DNA of 57,432 nucleotides, from assembly GCA_017548525.1 (NCBI GenBank), contig JAFYZV010000227.1, forward strand, positions 1-57,432. The letters run 5' to 3'. Shown piece after piece: positions 17,343 through 24,254 of this stretch. Every line of letters starts with the position of its first letter. Position 1 is the stretch's first letter. Source of the stretch: Prevotella sp. (GTDB taxonomy: Bacteria; Bacteroidota; Bacteroidia; Bacteroidales; Bacteroidaceae). Made by a program: the position numbers and the translations under genes. The notes under the pieces were generated by a model. That model was not told the DNA's origin. It did no database searches and saw only the letters and a list, made by a program, of their open reading frames with translations.

Positions 17343-18476
17343 TCAGACATACATCAAGTCGCTCATAATGGAATCGCTGACAAACAATCCCTTCCGTGTT
17401 AAGGCGATGCGACCATCATCGATGGCAAGCAATCCCTGGTCAATATGTTTCCGTGCTTGCCGCAACAAATACGTTTGATATTTCCCAGAAAGGATGTCCA
17501 ATGGTATTCCCTTGCGTGTTCGCAATACCGTAGTGACGGTATCATTGTAACGTAACTCATCCGTCAACACTTCTTTTTCAGCTGGTACCTCCCCACGAAG
17601 GATGCCATCCATGTATTGTTGAATGTCAGAGACATTCCATTGGCGGGTGTTGATGTCGTAAGAATGAGCCGCCGCCCCAAGTCCCAAGTACGGAATCCCT
17701 TGCCAATAGCTACCGTTATGGCGTGAACGGAAACATCGTCGAGGGTCGCTTTTAGCGAAATTACTAATCTCATAATGCTCATAGCCAGCAGCCTCTAACT
17801 TGTCGATTAGCATGTCATACATCTGCACACTCAATTCCTCTTCCTTCTCCATTTCATCCTTAGACCTACACCTTATTATATTATATAAAGGAGTTCCTTC
17901 CTCATACATAAGACTATATGCAGACAGATGCTCCACTTGTAGTGCCACCGCCTTACTCAAATCCTCTTCCCAATCTGCCAAAGTCTCATTAGGAAAGCCA
18001 AACATCAGGTCGATGCTGAGATTGTCAATGCCCGCCTCCCTCAGCCTCTTCACCGCCGTTGTTACCTGTGAAGAAGTATGCCTACGGCACAAGAAGCGTA
18101 GGCGGGTGTCGTTGAATGTTTGCACACCCATGCTCACTCGATTGACAGGTAACGCCCGCAACCCATCGGCAAACTCCTGGGTGATGTCATCAGGATTGCA
18201 TTCAATGGTTACCTCTGCATTTTCTTCCACCTTATATATATATAGTAGGTGTCTGAACAACTTCTCCAATTGCGATAACGTCAATTGGGAAGGAGTACCC
18301 CCTCCAAGATAAACCGTGGAAAAAGAACGAGGAGACCATACCTCGCTCCGTAACTCCATCTCTCGGCAGAGAGACTCGATGTAAGGATCACGCCTTTCGA
18401 GCAAAGTCGTAGAGTAAAAGCCACAATATATACAACGGCTCTTGCAAAACGGGATATGGATATAGATGCCAGCCAT
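17343..18476 (-). CDS. hemW: Radical SAM heme chaperone/coproporphyrinogen oxidase-like protein HemW
   Basis: A 377-residue radical SAM protein. The CxxxCxxC cluster motif is C11-C15-C18 in IHIPFCKSRCIYCGF. The central domain has the VYLGGGTPS motif. The SRHNGSYWQGIPYLGLGAAAHSY segment matches the HNxxYW heme-binding motif of HemW, and a C-terminal winged-helix-like HemN_C domain follows. HemW inserts or carries heme; older annotation as an oxygen-independent coproporphyrinogen III oxidase is probably wrong for this subgroup. The start at 18476 (MAGIYIHIP) is preferred over 18506 because the -7 box (18511-18504) is immediately upstream. Confidence 0.9.
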   Translation of the reverse strand: MAGIYIHIPFCKSRCIYCGFYSTTLLERRDPYIESLCREMELRSEVWSPRSFSTVYLGGGTPSQLTLSQLEKLFRHLLYIYKVEENAEVTIECNPDDITQEFADGLRALPVNRVSMGVQTFNDTRLRFLCRRHTSSQVTTAVKRLREAGIDNLSIDLMFGFPNETLADWEEDLSKAVALQVEHLSAYSLMYEEGTPLYNIIRCRSKDEMEKEEELSVQMYDMLIDKLEAAGYEHYEISNFAKSDPRRCFRSRHNGSYWQGIPYLGLGAAAHSYDINTRQWNVSDIQQYMDGILRGEVPAEKEVLTDELRYNDTVTTVLRTRKGIPLDILSGKYQTYLLRQARKHIDQGLLAIDDGRIALTRKGLFVSDSIMSDLMYV

Positions 18477-18503
18477 CAGACCAAAAAGACTATAGATTTG
18501 TCG

Positions 18504-18511
18504 CAAAAATA
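18504..18511 (-). promoter_or_regulatory. hemW -7 box
   Basis: TATTTTTG on the minus strand, 28 bases before the chosen ATG. The upstream in-frame codon at 18506 lies inside the box, which excludes the longer start. Confidence 0.6.
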
Positions 18512-18552
18512 CTAATAAGTCATAAAAGATGATTGGTTTTTTAAGATTTCTT

Positions 18553-18582
18553 TTGCCTATTCGTCAAAAAGTAGTAATTTTA
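18553..18582 (+). promoter_or_regulatory. Probable EF-G2 promoter
   Basis: TTG in TTTTGCC (18553-18555), then 19 bases, then TAATTTTA (18575-18582), which matches TAnnTTTG at seven of eight positions. The leader would be about 65 nt. Confidence 0.4.
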
Positions 18583-18654
18583 ACGGCGATATGCGAAATT
18601 GCATTCAAAAATCAATCGAATTGATTAACTAATAACAAATAAAACCAAACAACA

Positions 18655-20814
18655 ATGCGTATTTATCAAACAAACGAAATCAAGAACATCGCACTCATTG
18701 GCAGCGCGGGTTCCGGCAAGACCACTCTTGCCGAGGCCATGCTTTTTGAGAGTGGTATTATCAAACGCCGTGGAACTGTCGAAGGAAAGAACACGGTGAG
18801 TGATTATTTCCCCGTAGAACAGGAATATGGTTATTCGGTATTCCCAACCGTATTTCATGTGGAGTGGAACAACAAAAAGCTGAATATCATTGATTGTCCA
18901 GGGTCTGATGACTTCGTGGGCGGTGCCATCACGGCATTGAACGTAACCGACCAAGCAGTTATCGTGGTGAATGGGCAATATGGACCCGAGGTAGGTACCA
19001 TGAACGCCTTCCGTAACACGGAAAAGTTACAAAAGCCTGTCATCTTCTTGGTCAACCAACTCGACCGCGAGCATTGCGACTTCGACACAGTGGTATCAAA
19101 CTTACGTGAGACATTTGGGCAGAAGTGCGTGTTGGTGCAATATCCCGTCGCCACGGGTCCTGGATTCAACGCCGTCATTGACGTGCTGTTGATGAAAAAA
19201 TACAGCTGGAAACCCGAGGGGGGCGCACCCATCATTGAGGACATTCCCGCCGAGGAGATGGACAAGGCAGAAGAGCTACATGCCACCCTCGTGGAAGCTG
19301 CCGCAGGCAACGATGATGCCTTGATGGAGAAATTCTTTGAGGAGGAGAACCTTTCCGAGGACGAGATGCGTGAAGGTATCCGCAAGGGTCTTGTCACTCG
19401 TTCGATTTTCCCAGTATTCTGTGTATGTTCGGGCAAGGACATGGGTGTGCGTCGCTTGATGGAGTTCTTGGGTAACGTCGTGCCATTCGTGGATGACATG
19501 CCAAAGATTGCCAATGCCAATGGCGATGATATTGCTCCCGATGCCAATGGTCCAGAGTCCCTATTCTTCTTCAAGACAGGTATGGAGCCACATATCGGCG
19601 AAGTAACATACTTTAAGGTGATGAGCGGAACCGTGAAGCCTGGTGATGACTTGACAAACGCTGACCGTGGATCGAAGGAGCGCATGGGGCAGATTTTCGC
19701 TTGCGCCGGTGCCAACCGCATCCCCGTAGACGAGATGAAAGCCGGTGACATTGGCTGTACCGTAAAACTGAAAGACGTGAAGACAGGCAATACCCTGAAT
19801 GGAAAAGATTGTGACTGGAGCTTCAATTTCATCAAATATCCAAACTCCAAATATTCACGTGCCATCAAGGCTGTGAACACTTCTGACACAGAGAAGTTGA
19901 TGGCTGCCGTTCTCAAGATGCGCCAAGAAGACCCCACATGGGTTGTGGAGCAGTCGAAAGAACTCAAGCAAACCATCATTCATGGACAAGGCGAGTTCCA
20001 CCTACGCACACTGAAATGGCGCTTGGAGAACAATGAGAAGTTGCAGGTGAAATACGAAGAGCCGAAGATTCCCTATCGCGAAACCATCACCAAGATGGCA
20101 CGTGCCGACTATCGCCACAAGAAACAGTCGGGAGGCGCAGGACAGTTTGGCGAGGTTCACTTGATTTTGGAGCCTTACACAGAAGGAATGCCTGACCCAA
20201 CTGTTTACAAATTCAATGGCCAGGAGTTCAAGATGAACATCAAGGGTAAGGAGGAAATCGACCTCGAATGGGGTGGAAAACTCGTTTTCATTAACTCTGT
20301 GGTGGGTGGTGCTATTGACGCACGATTCATGCCCGCCATCCTGAAAGGTGTGATGGAACGCATGGAACAAGGTCCTCTGACCGGTTCATACGCCCGCGAC
20401 GTGCGTGTTATCGTCTATGATGGTAAGATGCACCCTGTGGATTCCAACGAACTTTCGTTCATGTTGGCAGCCCGCCAAGCATTCTCCGCTGCATTTAAGA
20501 ACGCTGGTCCGAAGATTCTGGAGCCAATCTATGACTTGGAAGTCCTCGTTCCCGCCGACTACATGGGTGACGTGATGAGTGACTTGCAGGGACGCCGCGC
20601 CATCATCATGGGCATGGACAGCGAGGCTGGTTACCAGAAACTGACCGCCAAAATTCCATTGAAGGAACTCTCCAGCTACTCCATCGCCTTAAGTTCTCTT
20701 ACTGGAGGTCGTGCTTCGTTCTCCACATCATTCTCCAGTTATGAACTTGTACCTAACGATATTCAGCAAACGCTTATTGCCGAGCATGAGGCAGAAGCTG
20801 CTGAAGAAGATTAA
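18655..20814 (+). CDS. Elongation factor G paralogue, EF-G2 type
   Basis: A 719-residue translational GTPase-like protein with all five EF-G domains. G1 reads GSAGSGKTT (residues 16-24) instead of the canonical AHIDAGKTT. G3 reads DCPGSDDF (80-87), so the catalytic His of DTPGHVDF is replaced by Ser84. G4 reads NQLD (134-137) rather than NKLD. Domain IV and V hallmarks (RADYRHKKQSGGAGQFGEVHL, GSYARDVRVIVYDGKMHPVDS, YELVPNDIQQTLI) are intact. A Bacteroides paralogue called EF-G2 has been reported to support translocation without GTPase activity under starvation; the substitutions here suggest the same class. It is not the housekeeping fusA, which would lie with ribosomal protein genes. Confidence 0.88.
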   Translation: MRIYQTNEIKNIALIGSAGSGKTTLAEAMLFESGIIKRRGTVEGKNTVSDYFPVEQEYGYSVFPTVFHVEWNNKKLNIIDCPGSDDFVGGAITALNVTDQAVIVVNGQYGPEVGTMNAFRNTEKLQKPVIFLVNQLDREHCDFDTVVSNLRETFGQKCVLVQYPVATGPGFNAVIDVLLMKKYSWKPEGGAPIIEDIPAEEMDKAEELHATLVEAAAGNDDALMEKFFEEENLSEDEMREGIRKGLVTRSIFPVFCVCSGKDMGVRRLMEFLGNVVPFVDDMPKIANANGDDIAPDANGPESLFFFKTGMEPHIGEVTYFKVMSGTVKPGDDLTNADRGSKERMGQIFACAGANRIPVDEMKAGDIGCTVKLKDVKTGNTLNGKDCDWSFNFIKYPNSKYSRAIKAVNTSDTEKLMAAVLKMRQEDPTWVVEQSKELKQTIIHGQGEFHLRTLKWRLENNEKLQVKYEEPKIPYRETITKMARADYRHKKQSGGAGQFGEVHLILEPYTEGMPDPTVYKFNGQEFKMNIKGKEEIDLEWGGKLVFINSVVGGAIDARFMPAILKGVMERMEQGPLTGSYARDVRVIVYDGKMHPVDSNELSFMLAARQAFSAAFKNAGPKILEPIYDLEVLVPADYMGDVMSDLQGRRAIIMGMDSEAGYQKLTAKIPLKELSSYSIALSSLTGGRASFSTSFSSYELVPNDIQQTLIAEHEAEAAEED

Positions 20815-20838
20815 GGATAAGTTGATAATCACTATCAA

Positions 20839-20875
20839 GGGGAGCATTCCTATTCTTATGGGATGCTCCCTCTTT
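20839..20875 (+). terminator. Terminator of the EF-G2 gene
   Basis: GGGGAGCATTCC, a 9-base loop, GGGATGCTCCC, then TCTTTT. It begins 24 bases after the stop. Confidence 0.8.
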
Positions 20876-20950
20876 TCATACATACAAGCCTATGTGAAAC
20901 ATGAAAAAAGGAATCATTTATTTTTTTCTGTATATTTTTTATGAATTATT

Positions 20951-20981
20951 TTGGATAATATGAATTTATTTATTACTTTTG
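20951..20981 (+). promoter_or_regulatory. Promoter of micro-peptide gene 1
   Basis: TTG in ATTTTGGATA (20951-20953), a 20-base spacer, and TACTTTTG (20974-20981). The same ATTTTGGATA box recurs before peptide gene 3. Confidence 0.65.
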
Positions 20982-21026
20982 CAACGTAATTGAATACGAA
21001 TACGAATCAAAACATAAATATTCATC

Positions 21027-21185
21027 ATGAAAATTTACGAAAAACCCTACACAAAAGAAATGGAGATTGAATCGGATGAAGTCTTGGCTGGGTCACAATT
21101 TATTGATGACGATAACGGCAATGAAGATTATCCCACAGGTGGTGAAGGAAACGATGCTCCAGCAAAGTTTGACGTGTGGGGATAA
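21027..21185 (+). CDS. Micro-peptide 1, acidic, precursor-like
   Basis: A 52-codon ORF with its own good promoter and the leader end ATATTCATCATGAAAA that is shared with peptide 3. The product starts MKIYEKPYTKEMEIESDEV, continues LAGS, and then has a strongly acidic, Gly/Asn/Asp-rich C-terminal half ending DVWG. The N-terminal pattern MKxYE(K/R)PxxKExExE followed by (L/C)A(G/S) is the same as in the two peptides downstream. It resembles the leader-plus-core layout of small precursor peptides, but no modifying enzyme or exporter is adjacent. A perfect palindrome GGGATAATTATCCC (21179-21192) overlaps the stop. Function unknown. Confidence 0.65.
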   Translation: MKIYEKPYTKEMEIESDEVLAGSQFIDDDNGNEDYPTGGEGNDAPAKFDVWG

Positions 21186-21192
21186 TTATCCC
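21179..21192. repeat. 14-bp perfect palindrome at the stop of micro-peptide 1
   Basis: GGGATAATTATCCC includes the TAA stop (21183-21185). It has no loop and no T-tract, so it is more like a binding site or an RNA-end stabilising structure than a terminator. Confidence 0.6.
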
Positions 21193-21269
21193 TATCGTCA
21201 TTGACCTTTCTTAACGGCATTATTGCATTATATATATATAATTAGTACAAACTTTAATATTAAAGGATC

Positions 21270-21374
21270 ATGAAAAAGTACGAAAGACCAGAAATCAAAG
21301 AGATTGAACTCGAGGTTCTTCCTTTGTGTGCTTCTGACGTTGAGCCACAAGACCCAACGGGTGAAAATTGGTAA
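21270..21374 (+). CDS. Micro-peptide 2 (tandem copy)
   Basis: A 34-codon ORF starting MKKYERPEIKEIELEVLPL, with CAS at residues 20-22 and the end TGENW. It is 96% identical in DNA to micro-peptide 3: two silent third-position changes and one replaced codon (AAT versus GGA). AAAGGA (21262-21267) is a possible ribosome-binding site. It has no TAnnTTTG box of its own, and no terminator separates it from peptide 1, so the two may form one transcript that ends at the hairpin 21399-21429. Function unknown. Confidence 0.65.
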   Translation: MKKYERPEIKEIELEVLPLCASDVEPQDPTGENW

Positions 21375-21398
21375 AATCTCTAAAGGACTTGAGAATGA

Positions 21399-21429
21399 AG
21401 TCGTGAGTTTCGTACTCACGACTTTTTTA
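21399..21429 (+). terminator. Terminator of micro-peptide 2
   Basis: AGTCGTGAGT-TTCGT-ACTCACGACT is a perfect 10-bp stem followed by TTTTTTA. It covaries with the terminator of peptide 3 (T21401-A21421 here, C-G there). Confidence 0.85.
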
Positions 21430-21470
21430 TATTACAACCTTAACCAGTAGAATCATTTTTGTAAAATATT

Positions 21471-21500
21471 TTGGATAGTAATTTTATTTTATTATCTTTG
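21471..21500 (+). promoter_or_regulatory. Promoter of micro-peptide 3
   Basis: TTG in ATTTTGGATA (21471-21473), a 19-base spacer, then TATCTTTG (21493-21500). Layout and flanks match the promoter of peptide 1. Confidence 0.65.
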
Positions 21501-21545
21501 CAGCGATAAATAAGAAAAGTTGAAACCATAACATTTATATTCATC

Positions 21546-21650
21546 ATGAAAAAGTACGAAAGACCAGAAATCAAAGAGATTGAACTTGAGGTTCTTCCTT
21601 TGTGTGCTTCTGACGTTGAACCACAAGACCCAACGGGTGAAGGATGGTAA
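21546..21650 (+). CDS. Micro-peptide 3 (tandem copy)
   Basis: A 34-codon ORF, identical in protein to micro-peptide 2 except for one residue (end TGEGW instead of TGENW). It has a complete promoter, the ATATTCATCATG start context of peptide 1, and its own terminator. One Cys (residue 20), one C-terminal Trp and many acidic residues are present. The silent-heavy difference pattern between copies argues for selection on the peptide. It precedes the sugar-isomerase operon but is separated from it by a terminator and a new promoter. Confidence 0.65.
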   Translation: MKKYERPEIKEIELEVLPLCASDVEPQDPTGEGW

Positions 21651-21675
21651 ACAATGTCTAAAGGACTTAAGAATG

Positions 21676-21710
21676 AAGCCGTGAGCAACAAACTCACGGC
21701 TTTTTTATTT
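21676..21710 (+). terminator. Terminator of micro-peptide 3
   Basis: AAGCCGTGAG-CAACAAA-CTCACGGCTT followed by TTTTATTTTTT. Homologous to the 21399 hairpin, with a compensatory base-pair change. Confidence 0.85.
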
Positions 21711-21731
21711 TTTCATATCAATATTTTTTTC

Positions 21732-21739
21732 TATCTTTG
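21732..21739 (+). promoter_or_regulatory. -7 box of the sugar-isomerase operon
   Basis: TATCTTTG, 69 bases before the ATG at 21808. No other promoter is obvious before 30690, so it probably drives the whole operon. Confidence 0.55.
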
Positions 21740-21807
21740 TCAGCAGAATCAAACGCTTTGAGACAACTACAATCAAAACATTTCTTCAAGAAAAAAGATA
21801 CAAAAAC

Positions 21808-23178
21808 ATGAAAGAGAAAGCAATGAACGTAAAACTTGTGGTGCGCCCCATCGTGGGATGTCTCACACACTCACATTTCTGGGAAGGGCCATGCCGTGCA
21901 GGGTATGCAAAAGACATGACCCCCGAAGCAGAAGATGCCGCCGCCACCGCCGCCCTTGAACAAGCCAAGGAGATATTGAAGGGTGCAACACCCGAGATAG
22001 AGATGCTTCCCGCCATTGACGCTCGTTACGACGAGAAGTTCGTCGTGAGTCGTGAAATCTATACACAGATAGAGGAAGACCTCGACCGTGTGGACTTCTT
22101 CCTTTGCATGAATTGGCGTATACCTAAACTGGAACGGTATCACAAGACGGTGGTCATCATGCAAAACGGCAACGAGGGGATTGATTTTGCCGCTTACTGC
22201 CGTTCGATAGGCATAGAAGCATACGTTTGCATGGACCTCCAAGACCTCAACGAAATTGCTCATGCCCTATGGGTGAGGAAGGTGGTTGCTAACACACGTG
22301 CTTTGGTTTTAACACATGGTTCTATGCCAACATTTGGCTTGCAGAGTGTTATCCGTGACCCCGAACTGATTCGTCAATGTTATGGTATGGAAATCGTGAA
22401 GTTGCCATTCCGTGACATCTTCCAATATATGGATGAAGTGACAAATGAAGAAGCTCGTCCCATCGCCGAGAGAATCATCGGCGGGTCGTTGGAGACCAAG
22501 GTCAACAAAGACTGGTTTATCAACGACATCAAGTATTACTTAGCTGCCAAGAAGATGATGGATGTCTATGATTGCAACGCCTTCTCCACGGCATGTCATG
22601 AATTATGCACATCGGAAATCCCACAAAACCGAAAGTTCACGCCTTGTGTCTGCCATTCCTTGCTCAAAGACGAAGGCTATCCCAGCGGTTGCGAGGAAGA
22701 CTTGAATGCCTTGCTTGCCATGACCATCATGCAAGCGACAGCCATGCGTCCTGCTTTCATGGGCAATCCTAATATGGAAACCGATGAGCTATTGCGCATC
22801 CACCATGCCGTACCCGCCCTTTGCATGAACGGCTATGGCACGAAACCGTTGAAATACAAGCTATGGGCATTCACGGGACAAGGCTTTGGTGGTAAGTTGC
22901 AAGTGGATTTTACACAAAACGAAGACCAATATATCACATTAGGTCGTTTTAATCCTATGGCTGACACCATCAGTATCAAACGTGGAGAGGTTCTGAAATC
23001 CGAATTTGATGCCGTTTATTGTTCGCCATATTATTACATCAAGATGAACGATGCGCGTGGTTTCATGCATCAATTAGCAGGATATGGTCATCATCAAGTG
23101 CTCATCTTCGGTGATTATACCAAGATGATACACCTAATCGGTGAGGTAATGGGCTTTAAAGTCATGGAACACAAATGA
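21808..23178 (+). CDS. L-fucose/L-arabinose isomerase-family protein
   Basis: A 456-residue cytoplasmic protein of the FucI/AraA sugar-isomerase superfamily. Visible features are an N-terminal Rossmann-like half with a PAIDARYDEKFVVSREIYTQIEEDLDRVDFFLCMNW region, a Cys-rich central part (NAFSTACHELCTSEIPQNRKFTPCVCHSLLKDEGYPSGCEEDLNALL, with the family's DGxxxGCExDL-like site) and a C-terminal half with the HHAVPALCMNGYG region. It would interconvert an aldose and a ketose; the sugar cannot be read from the sequence. A second ATG five codons in (21823) is an alternative start. First gene of a run with 4-base overlaps. Confidence 0.75.
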   Translation: MKEKAMNVKLVVRPIVGCLTHSHFWEGPCRAGYAKDMTPEAEDAAATAALEQAKEILKGATPEIEMLPAIDARYDEKFVVSREIYTQIEEDLDRVDFFLCMNWRIPKLERYHKTVVIMQNGNEGIDFAAYCRSIGIEAYVCMDLQDLNEIAHALWVRKVVANTRALVLTHGSMPTFGLQSVIRDPELIRQCYGMEIVKLPFRDIFQYMDEVTNEEARPIAERIIGGSLETKVNKDWFINDIKYYLAAKKMMDVYDCNAFSTACHELCTSEIPQNRKFTPCVCHSLLKDEGYPSGCEEDLNALLAMTIMQATAMRPAFMGNPNMETDELLRIHHAVPALCMNGYGTKPLKYKLWAFTGQGFGGKLQVDFTQNEDQYITLGRFNPMADTISIKRGEVLKSEFDAVYCSPYYYIKMNDARGFMHQLAGYGHHQVLIFGDYTKMIHLIGEVMGFKVMEHK

Positions 23179-24254
23179 TTTATCTCAACAACGCAGCCAC
23201 CAGTTTTCCTAAGCCGCCATCAGTCATTGAGGCAATGAAGATGGCTATAGAAAGTCCGCCGATTAGTCCTTTGCGCAGCAATGCACAAGGGAACGACTTG
23301 TTAACCGACTTGCGAAAACTATTTGGCACGTTGTTGAATATCAGCGATTGGGAAAGAATCTTCTTTTGCAGTAGTGCTACCGATGCCATCAACCGCATTT
23401 TAGGAGGAGAAGAATGGACGATAGTAGTCACTTCCGACAATCACAATAGCGTACTCCGCCCATTGTTGAATGGACATCACCCTGTCAAAATCATTTCCCA
23501 ATCATCTGTTTTTGACACCCTCCCAAATGGCTCGTTGCTCATCCTCAATCATTGTTCAAATGTTACGGGGAAGATTATTGATGTGCCATCCATCGTTCGT
23601 CAAGCCCATCAACAAGGTTGTCTTGTGATGCTCGATGCCTCACAGAGTGCTGGTTGCATTCCCATTGACATAGACCGTTGGGGGATTGACATCTTGGTGT
23701 TCACTGGGCATAAATCTTTGTTTGGTCCTACTGGAACGGGAGGATATTATGTTCATCGTGCCATCAACCTTCGCCCTACGCAATTTGGAGGTACGGGGCG
23801 TGATAGTAGTATCATCAAATACGAAAACGACGAATGGGAATATGAAGTGGGAACACAAAACACGGTGGGACTCGCAGGACTGAAAGCAGGTGTGGAATAT
23901 GTTCTTGGTCGTGGTGTAGGATGTATATTTCATCGTCTTCAATCCGAAATGAACTGGCTTATTAATGAATTGCATGGTTTTGAAAAAGTCATTCTCTATA
24001 GTGAAGGTGGTGAACGACAAGGACCAGTAGTCAGTTTTAATATCAAAGGATTACTCCCTTCCGACGTGGGTTATATTCTTCAAAACAGCTATGACATGAC
24101 GATTAGAACAGGACTCCATTGTTCACCGCTCATACATCAACAACTTGGCACATGGGAACATGGCACCGTCCGAGTCAGTCTCTCTGATTTTACCACTCAT
24201 GAGGAGTTGGAAACATTTATCTACGCTATTCGTGAAATAACGGGAAGCCTATGA
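23175..24254 (+). CDS. Class V PLP-dependent aminotransferase, cysteine-desulfurase-like
   Basis: A 359-residue enzyme of the aminotransferase class V fold. IYLNNAATSFPKPPSV opens the domain as in the family, FTGHKSLFGPTGTGGYYVH contains the PLP-binding lysine, and TIRTGLHCSPLIHQQLG contains the conserved RxGxHC with a cysteine at the position used by small cysteine-desulfurase-like proteins. The genes flanking it encode sugar enzymes rather than Fe-S assembly factors, so a role in sulfur or selenium transfer or an amino-sugar step is open. It overlaps both neighbours by ATGA. Confidence 0.8.
   Translation: MIYLNNAATSFPKPPSVIEAMKMAIESPPISPLRSNAQGNDLLTDLRKLFGTLLNISDWERIFFCSSATDAINRILGGEEWTIVVTSDNHNSVLRPLLNGHHPVKIISQSSVFDTLPNGSLLILNHCSNVTGKIIDVPSIVRQAHQQGCLVMLDASQSAGCIPIDIDRWGIDILVFTGHKSLFGPTGTGGYYVHRAINLRPTQFGGTGRDSSIIKYENDEWEYEVGTQNTVGLAGLKAGVEYVLGRGVGCIFHRLQSEMNWLINELHGFEKVILYSEGGERQGPVVSFNIKGLLPSDVGYILQNSYDMTIRTGLHCSPLIHQQLGTWEHGTVRVSLSDFTTHEELETFIYAIREITGSL

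Follow-up and report, generated by a model that had tools for sequence, protein, structure and literature searches.

What are the three very short open reading frames (ORFs) that lie in tandem beside an EF-G gene of a Prevotella sp. genome, and what might their products do? The window analysed here, a stretch of 57,432 nucleotides of contig JAFYZV010000227.1, holds them as an array on the + strand, between the EF-G gene and a gene at 21808 (Table 1). An earlier note, made from the DNA letters, had read the array as tandem micro-peptide cassettes of an undescribed-looking type that could be secreted or processed precursors with a signalling or antimicrobial role. Its description of the ORFs is largely accurate: all three (52, 34 and 34 codons) carry the pattern MKxYE(K/R)PxxKExExE. 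The (L/C)A(G/S) block and C-terminal Trp that it added fit less well. Copies 2 and 3 have CASD rather than LAGS as their second block, and the Trp of copy 1, which ends in ...VWG, is penultimate. The statement that the ORFs are too small for gene calling was too strong, their 105–159 nt exceeding the 90-nt minimum of common gene callers.

Table 1 Features of the small-ORF array and its conserved upstream flank
Feature	Position (nt)	Strand	Remarks
EF-G-like GTPase	18655..20814	+	Conserved upstream flank, outside the unit; EF-G domains; synteny in L104 and L105
Promoter of copy 1, Bacteroidota-type (TTTG-N-TAnnTTTG)	20950..20981	+	Regex scan
Small protein 1	21027..21185	+	52 aa, MKIYEKPYTKEMEIESDEVLAGS...PAKFDVWG; counterparts in L104 (7758) and L105 (7768)
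Small protein 2	21270..21374	+	34 aa; no upstream promoter of the searched type
Intrinsic terminator 3' of copy 2	21397..21425	+	
Promoter of copy 3, similar to that of copy 1	21470..21500	+	Regex scan; repeat D5
Small protein 3	21546..21650	+	34 aa; copy-2-like ORF with copy-1-like promoter
Intrinsic terminator 3' of copy 3	21675..21703	+	Also repeat D3

The array starts 212 nt past the EF-G gene and has no cargo gene in cis. Sites of the form TTG-N18-22-TAnnTTTG occur four times on the + strand and twice on the - strand of the 57 kb, and two of the four + strand sites precede copies 1 and 3. Two intrinsic terminators were found in the array, with 0.3 expected. Because copy 2 lacks a promoter of the searched type and starts 84 nt past copy 1, these two copies probably form a single unit with its own promoter and terminator, in which copy 2 is the second cistron. 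Copy 3 is a chimeric duplicate that combines a copy-1-like promoter with an ORF and terminator resembling those of copy 2 (repeats D1, D3 and D5). Copies 2 and 3 differ at 5 of 102 bases, for which NG86 gives 2.3 silent and 2.7 replacing changes, in agreement with the two silent changes and one replaced codon described before. As also stated there, no modifying enzyme, exporter or immunity gene was recognised among the nine window neighbours scanned: a HemN-type radical SAM protein, EF-G, a class V aminotransferase, a FecCD permease, two glycosidase-like proteins, a sodium symporter, a lactonase-like propeller and one protein without a match.

A scan of genome contigs with the 34-aa type revealed two related loci, L104 (Prevotella sp. 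RGIG2735, goat omasum) and L105 (Prevotella sp. UBA6994). In both, the array lies behind the same EF-G gene as in the window, with two copies in L104 and three in L105. Directly behind the L104 array is a gene of 901 codons for a secreted protein with a T9SS-like tail (L104:8270-10975, ...YNMAGQRISQPQKGINIQNGKKYIKK). This gene is missing from the window, where its promoter-like sequence seemingly precedes the next gene. The start, the YxxP motif, one Ser and one Trp are common to all eight peptides of the three loci. Values of dN/dS lay between 0.06 and 0.37 in 15 of 20 compared pairs, the other five comprising three saturated pairs, one identical pair and one (L071/L076) with two replacing changes and no silent one. 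The pooled pN/pS was 0.29 (p = 7e-13; six pairs, the identical one included), and small protein 1 compared with its L104 counterpart gave a dN/dS of 0.17. The three window ORFs are real genes under purifying selection. Their shortness and the lack of a family match could also be accounted for by chance ORFs or non-coding RNA genes, an explanation left with next to no probability by these ratios, by the starts and stops conserved in relatives and by the absence of an Rfam match in 18000-24000. Between copies and strains, the comparison that the earlier note had proposed, dN/dS is not near 1 wherever computable. With conserved starts and stops and no cover in Pfam or NCBIfam, the array is indeed of an undescribed-looking type.

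The window copies have many relatives. A profile of 34 peptides matched 18 copies in the window's own genome, three of them the window copies. Across the order, it matched 9 of 295 genomes at E≤0.01, including the own genome and all three genomes sampled from f111, a second Bacteroidales family with members, in which the pairing of cargo and small ORF is present too. Within the genus, a profile of 18 peptides, built partly from the same genomes that were searched, had matches in 138 of 150 genomes at E≤1, with up to 27 copies each, and in about 129 of 150 at a best E≤0.001. In a profile search in which they were themselves rows, the window copies scored E 2.1e-20 to 8.7e-9, and paralogs from the own genome that were not rows reached E values down to 2.7e-10. 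The homologues that the earlier note had suggested looking for by an N-terminal profile are therefore widespread in the genus.

Members are 34–82 aa long (60 measured) and share a common layout: an N-terminal MKKxYxxP, a block resembling [LIM][LIMC]xxS about 12 residues past the Pro, a Gly/Asp-rich linker and an acidic end with a Trp, which in 55 of 60 members lies within 20 residues of the C-terminus. The mean charge is +2.4 over the first 12 residues and -6.2 past residue 24. These 60 members are the 72 distinct small ORFs minus L002, L004, L040, L062, L076, L112, L117, L121, L123, L126, L127 and L132. All 60 contain YxxP and 37 contain YxxPx[L/V/I/F/A], counts that are partly circular in that the filter required Y/F/W..P; one profile match, L147, reads YIPC. 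Both halves of the proteins are similarly constrained (pN/pS 0.24 and 0.25, eight pairs). The maximal hydropathy over 12 residues has a median of 1.04 and a maximum of 2.09 in the 60 members, compared with 2.31–2.70 in six cargo proteins. By this hydropathy measure, used in place of a signal-peptide predictor, no Sec-like signal was seen in the 60 members, which leaves the secreted precursors proposed earlier without support. None of 34 small proteins matched the TIGR04183 sorting domain.

Searches of Pfam, NCBIfam, PHROGs, PADLOC, PDB and Rfam returned nothing usable for the family; what matches there were concerned one or two members each, at E values between 0.01 and 1. There was no match on plasmids with one canonical member as query, or on viral contigs with the 34-aa window type. 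A description of the family was not found in the accessible text of the open literature searched, motif strings included. The window ORFs are very probably members of a large small-protein family, as yet without a name, of Prevotella and its relatives.

The genomic position of the family offers the main clue to its role. In the own genome, 13 of the 15 copies outside the window start 7–45 nt behind a same-strand ORF, and two stand alone (on C244 and C11). The upstream ORF carries a C-terminal tail of the form ...YNLNGxxV...KGIYIVNGKKVVVK or alike in 12 of 15 cases (E 6.4e-9 or better), and one further tail is weak (E 0.13). Six own-genome tails are part of the tail profile; the four most recently added copies lie outside it, and every one of them is linked. 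Neither the small-protein nor the tail profile has a row from the complete genomes G117 and G122, which contain 118 tail matches and 33 small-ORF matches. Counting a small ORF as linked when it starts no more than 200 nt behind a same-strand tail, 21 of the 33 are linked (9/10 and 12/23, at distances of 14–133 nt), compared with a mean of 0.046 and a maximum of 2 in 2000 trials of random placement. The only unlinked copy in G117, its tenth, comes after a gene whose end is a variant.

For 54 of the 72 distinct small ORFs, an ORF of 100 codons or more is found no further than 250 nt upstream; the spurious L004, counted in the 72, has no upstream ORF and is outside the 54. The tail was detected on 47 of these 54 upstream ORFs, many of which also built the tail profile, and on 8 of 74 other ORF ends (Fisher p = 4e-19). 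We used the profile count since a strict regular expression (27/51, with repeated loci) undercounts tails such as GRGIYIKNGKKVVIK. Of 52 small ORFs, 26 are followed within 150 nt by a terminator-like site, and the 52 gaps contain none (3.5% in shuffles), so that the unit is cargo gene, small ORF, stop. We conclude that members of the family usually occupy the second position in a two-gene unit, behind a gene for a Sec-exported protein with a T9SS type-A-like tail. Tandem cassettes, as the array had first been described, do exist in the window, but they are atypical of the family, the window array being a stand-alone version like L104, L105 and the 11 copies in G122 with no tail match within 200 nt. 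Most tail genes lack a partner (79 of 88 tail matches in G117, 18 of 30 in G122), so T9SS cannot need the small protein in general.

Several loci show other arrangements. The 11 tail-less G122 copies (L136-L146) include several that are near-identical, as if spread by copying, and most are preceded by recurring CACACA and TACGCGCGCGCGAAGCG...CAAAGGG repeats. L124, in the f111 genome G442, lies behind a protein with a dockerin-like repeat end (DVNKDGLIDVQDVVTLVNIIL) instead of a T9SS-like tail. In genome G234, the YxxP small ORF L117 (MEAKKKYIKPEIEIVKID...) starts 31 nt behind an ORF whose end resembles an M23-type peptidase. G407, from the same family as the window's genome, has one member (L112), no SprA match and no tail gene upstream of that member; with no T9SS translocon detected in this genome, some members may work without T9SS.

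The tail itself was compared with known sequences. Its profile matches the gingipain R2 sorting domain weakly (E 0.04–0.2) and two solved proteins, the arabinanase 4kca and the beta-helix protein 7jvi, in both of which the tail is C-terminal. The NCBIfam model TIGR04183 matches 3 of 27 single tails (best E 1.3e-4) and misses 24, and it had no match at E≤1 in eight full-length cargo proteins of the own genome. The own genome encodes the T9SS translocon protein SprA; co-occurrence with SprA across the order is uninformative, SprA being present in 277 of 295 genomes. Together, the sequence features suggest a short type-A-like T9SS tail. It shares a DLxGR/KGIYI-like end with the type A sorting domain (TIGR04183/PF18962), but is shorter, at about 30–40 residues, and most single sequences fall below detection. 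The tail is a feature of the cargo, not of the small protein.

The explanation that best accounts for these observations overall is membership in a large family whose small soluble products are partners of T9SS-tail cargo; we put its probability at roughly 0.4. The mechanism, which we propose tentatively from sequence features, would run as follows. Since the small proteins have no signal sequence, they would remain in the cytosol, where each would be made beside its cargo and serve as a partner or hand-over protein for it. The N-terminal YxxP strand might dock on one partner and the acidic Trp tail on another, and the window copies, lacking a cis cargo gene, would act in trans. The charge layout, the kept Trp, the absence of a Sec stretch and the equal constraint on both halves fit such a soluble, two-ended partner better than a leader followed by a free core. 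A partner gene beside a cargo gene has a parallel in type B T9SS cargo, which has clustered PorP/SprF partner genes (PMC10202324). Here, in contrast, the tail resembles type A, and the partner is small, lacks a signal sequence and matches no known family. The accessible parts of PMC10202324 do not mention a small partner for type A cargo, and those of PMC10352776 and PMC7533575 contain nothing resembling this small-protein family.

The main rival is a precursor-peptide reading, prompted by the YxxP start, a motif that RiPP recognition elements read according to the accessible parts of PMC13381572 and PMC12710340. The first 23 or so residues would be a leader for such an element, the Gly/Asp/Trp part a core, and the enzymes would act in trans. 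As far as these sources are accessible, YxxPx[L/V/I/F/A] is given for the leaders of lasso and linear polyphosphorylated peptides (LPP; PMC13381572) and of lasso peptides (PMC12710340), and the precursors of both classes are, like the family, short, with an N-terminal YxxP and a more variable C-terminus (PMC13381572). The partly circular motif counts given above, the leader, linker and tail layout and the many scattered copies are compatible with this reading, as are matches of the lasso model NF033528 (lasso_cyano) to 2 of 34 small proteins (best E 0.053), the only match among curated lasso and LPP family models, none of which matched the window copies. However, the nine window neighbours included no recognisable maturation enzyme, and reading ten own-genome stretches by eye showed no third gene that recurs. 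The putative core is as constrained as the putative leader and keeps its Trp near the end, and nothing in a lasso or LPP pathway would explain a site behind T9SS-tail cargo. We regard a RiPP-type precursor as rather unlikely. A broader formulation, that the family is an unrecognised class with a YxxP, RRE-type leader-like start in Bacteroidales T9SS cargo operons, serving as export partners or in a RiPP-like pathway and with stand-alone copies acting in trans, is doubtful, though better placed than that precursor.

The small protein could instead be regulatory and report on or tune the synthesis or export of surface proteins, for instance through binding to a regulator. That only some tail genes are co-transcribed with a family member would suit this role, as would the stand-alone forms, those in the window having their own promoters and terminators, and RRE-like winged-helix folds do bind peptides of this sort. 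No recurring regulator gene, however, was noticed in the neighbourhoods read by eye, and we consider the regulatory role unlikely. A secreted signal or bacteriocin, cut at a double-glycine-like leader (LAGS) and exported by a C39 peptidase transporter, is scarcely credible. Many members do have a LAGS/CGS-like block, the genes are small and multi-copy, and a C39 peptidase above the cut-off is present in 56 of 150 genus genomes, including G127, which has a related array. Yet the family occurs in 138 of 150, and no C39 peptidase was found in the own genome (86.8% complete) or in the family-rich G117 and G122. Family counts are alike with and without C39 (medians 6 and 8, p = 0.46; 42 genomes at least 98% complete). 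C39-type bacteriocin processing is thus unlikely, and the antimicrobial action once suspected is not supported. Bacteroidetocins are small Bacteroidales precursors, and TIGR04149 presumably covers GG-type precursors of the same order; the family resembles them in size and in a small-residue motif after about 23 residues, but has no NCBIfam precursor-model match of that kind and no link to C39.

Whichever reading applies, the libraries searched have missed this small-protein family. If the RiPP reading were true, a hidden peptide pathway would exist in a major gut and rumen genus, and in the RiPP-like branch of the broader formulation the product would go with the exported protein. As for the preferred reading, a partner of T9SS-tail cargo, T9SS exports many Bacteroidota surface proteins, and a conserved second cistron behind a fair share of the cargo genes would provide a direct genetic handle on how such cargo is handed over.
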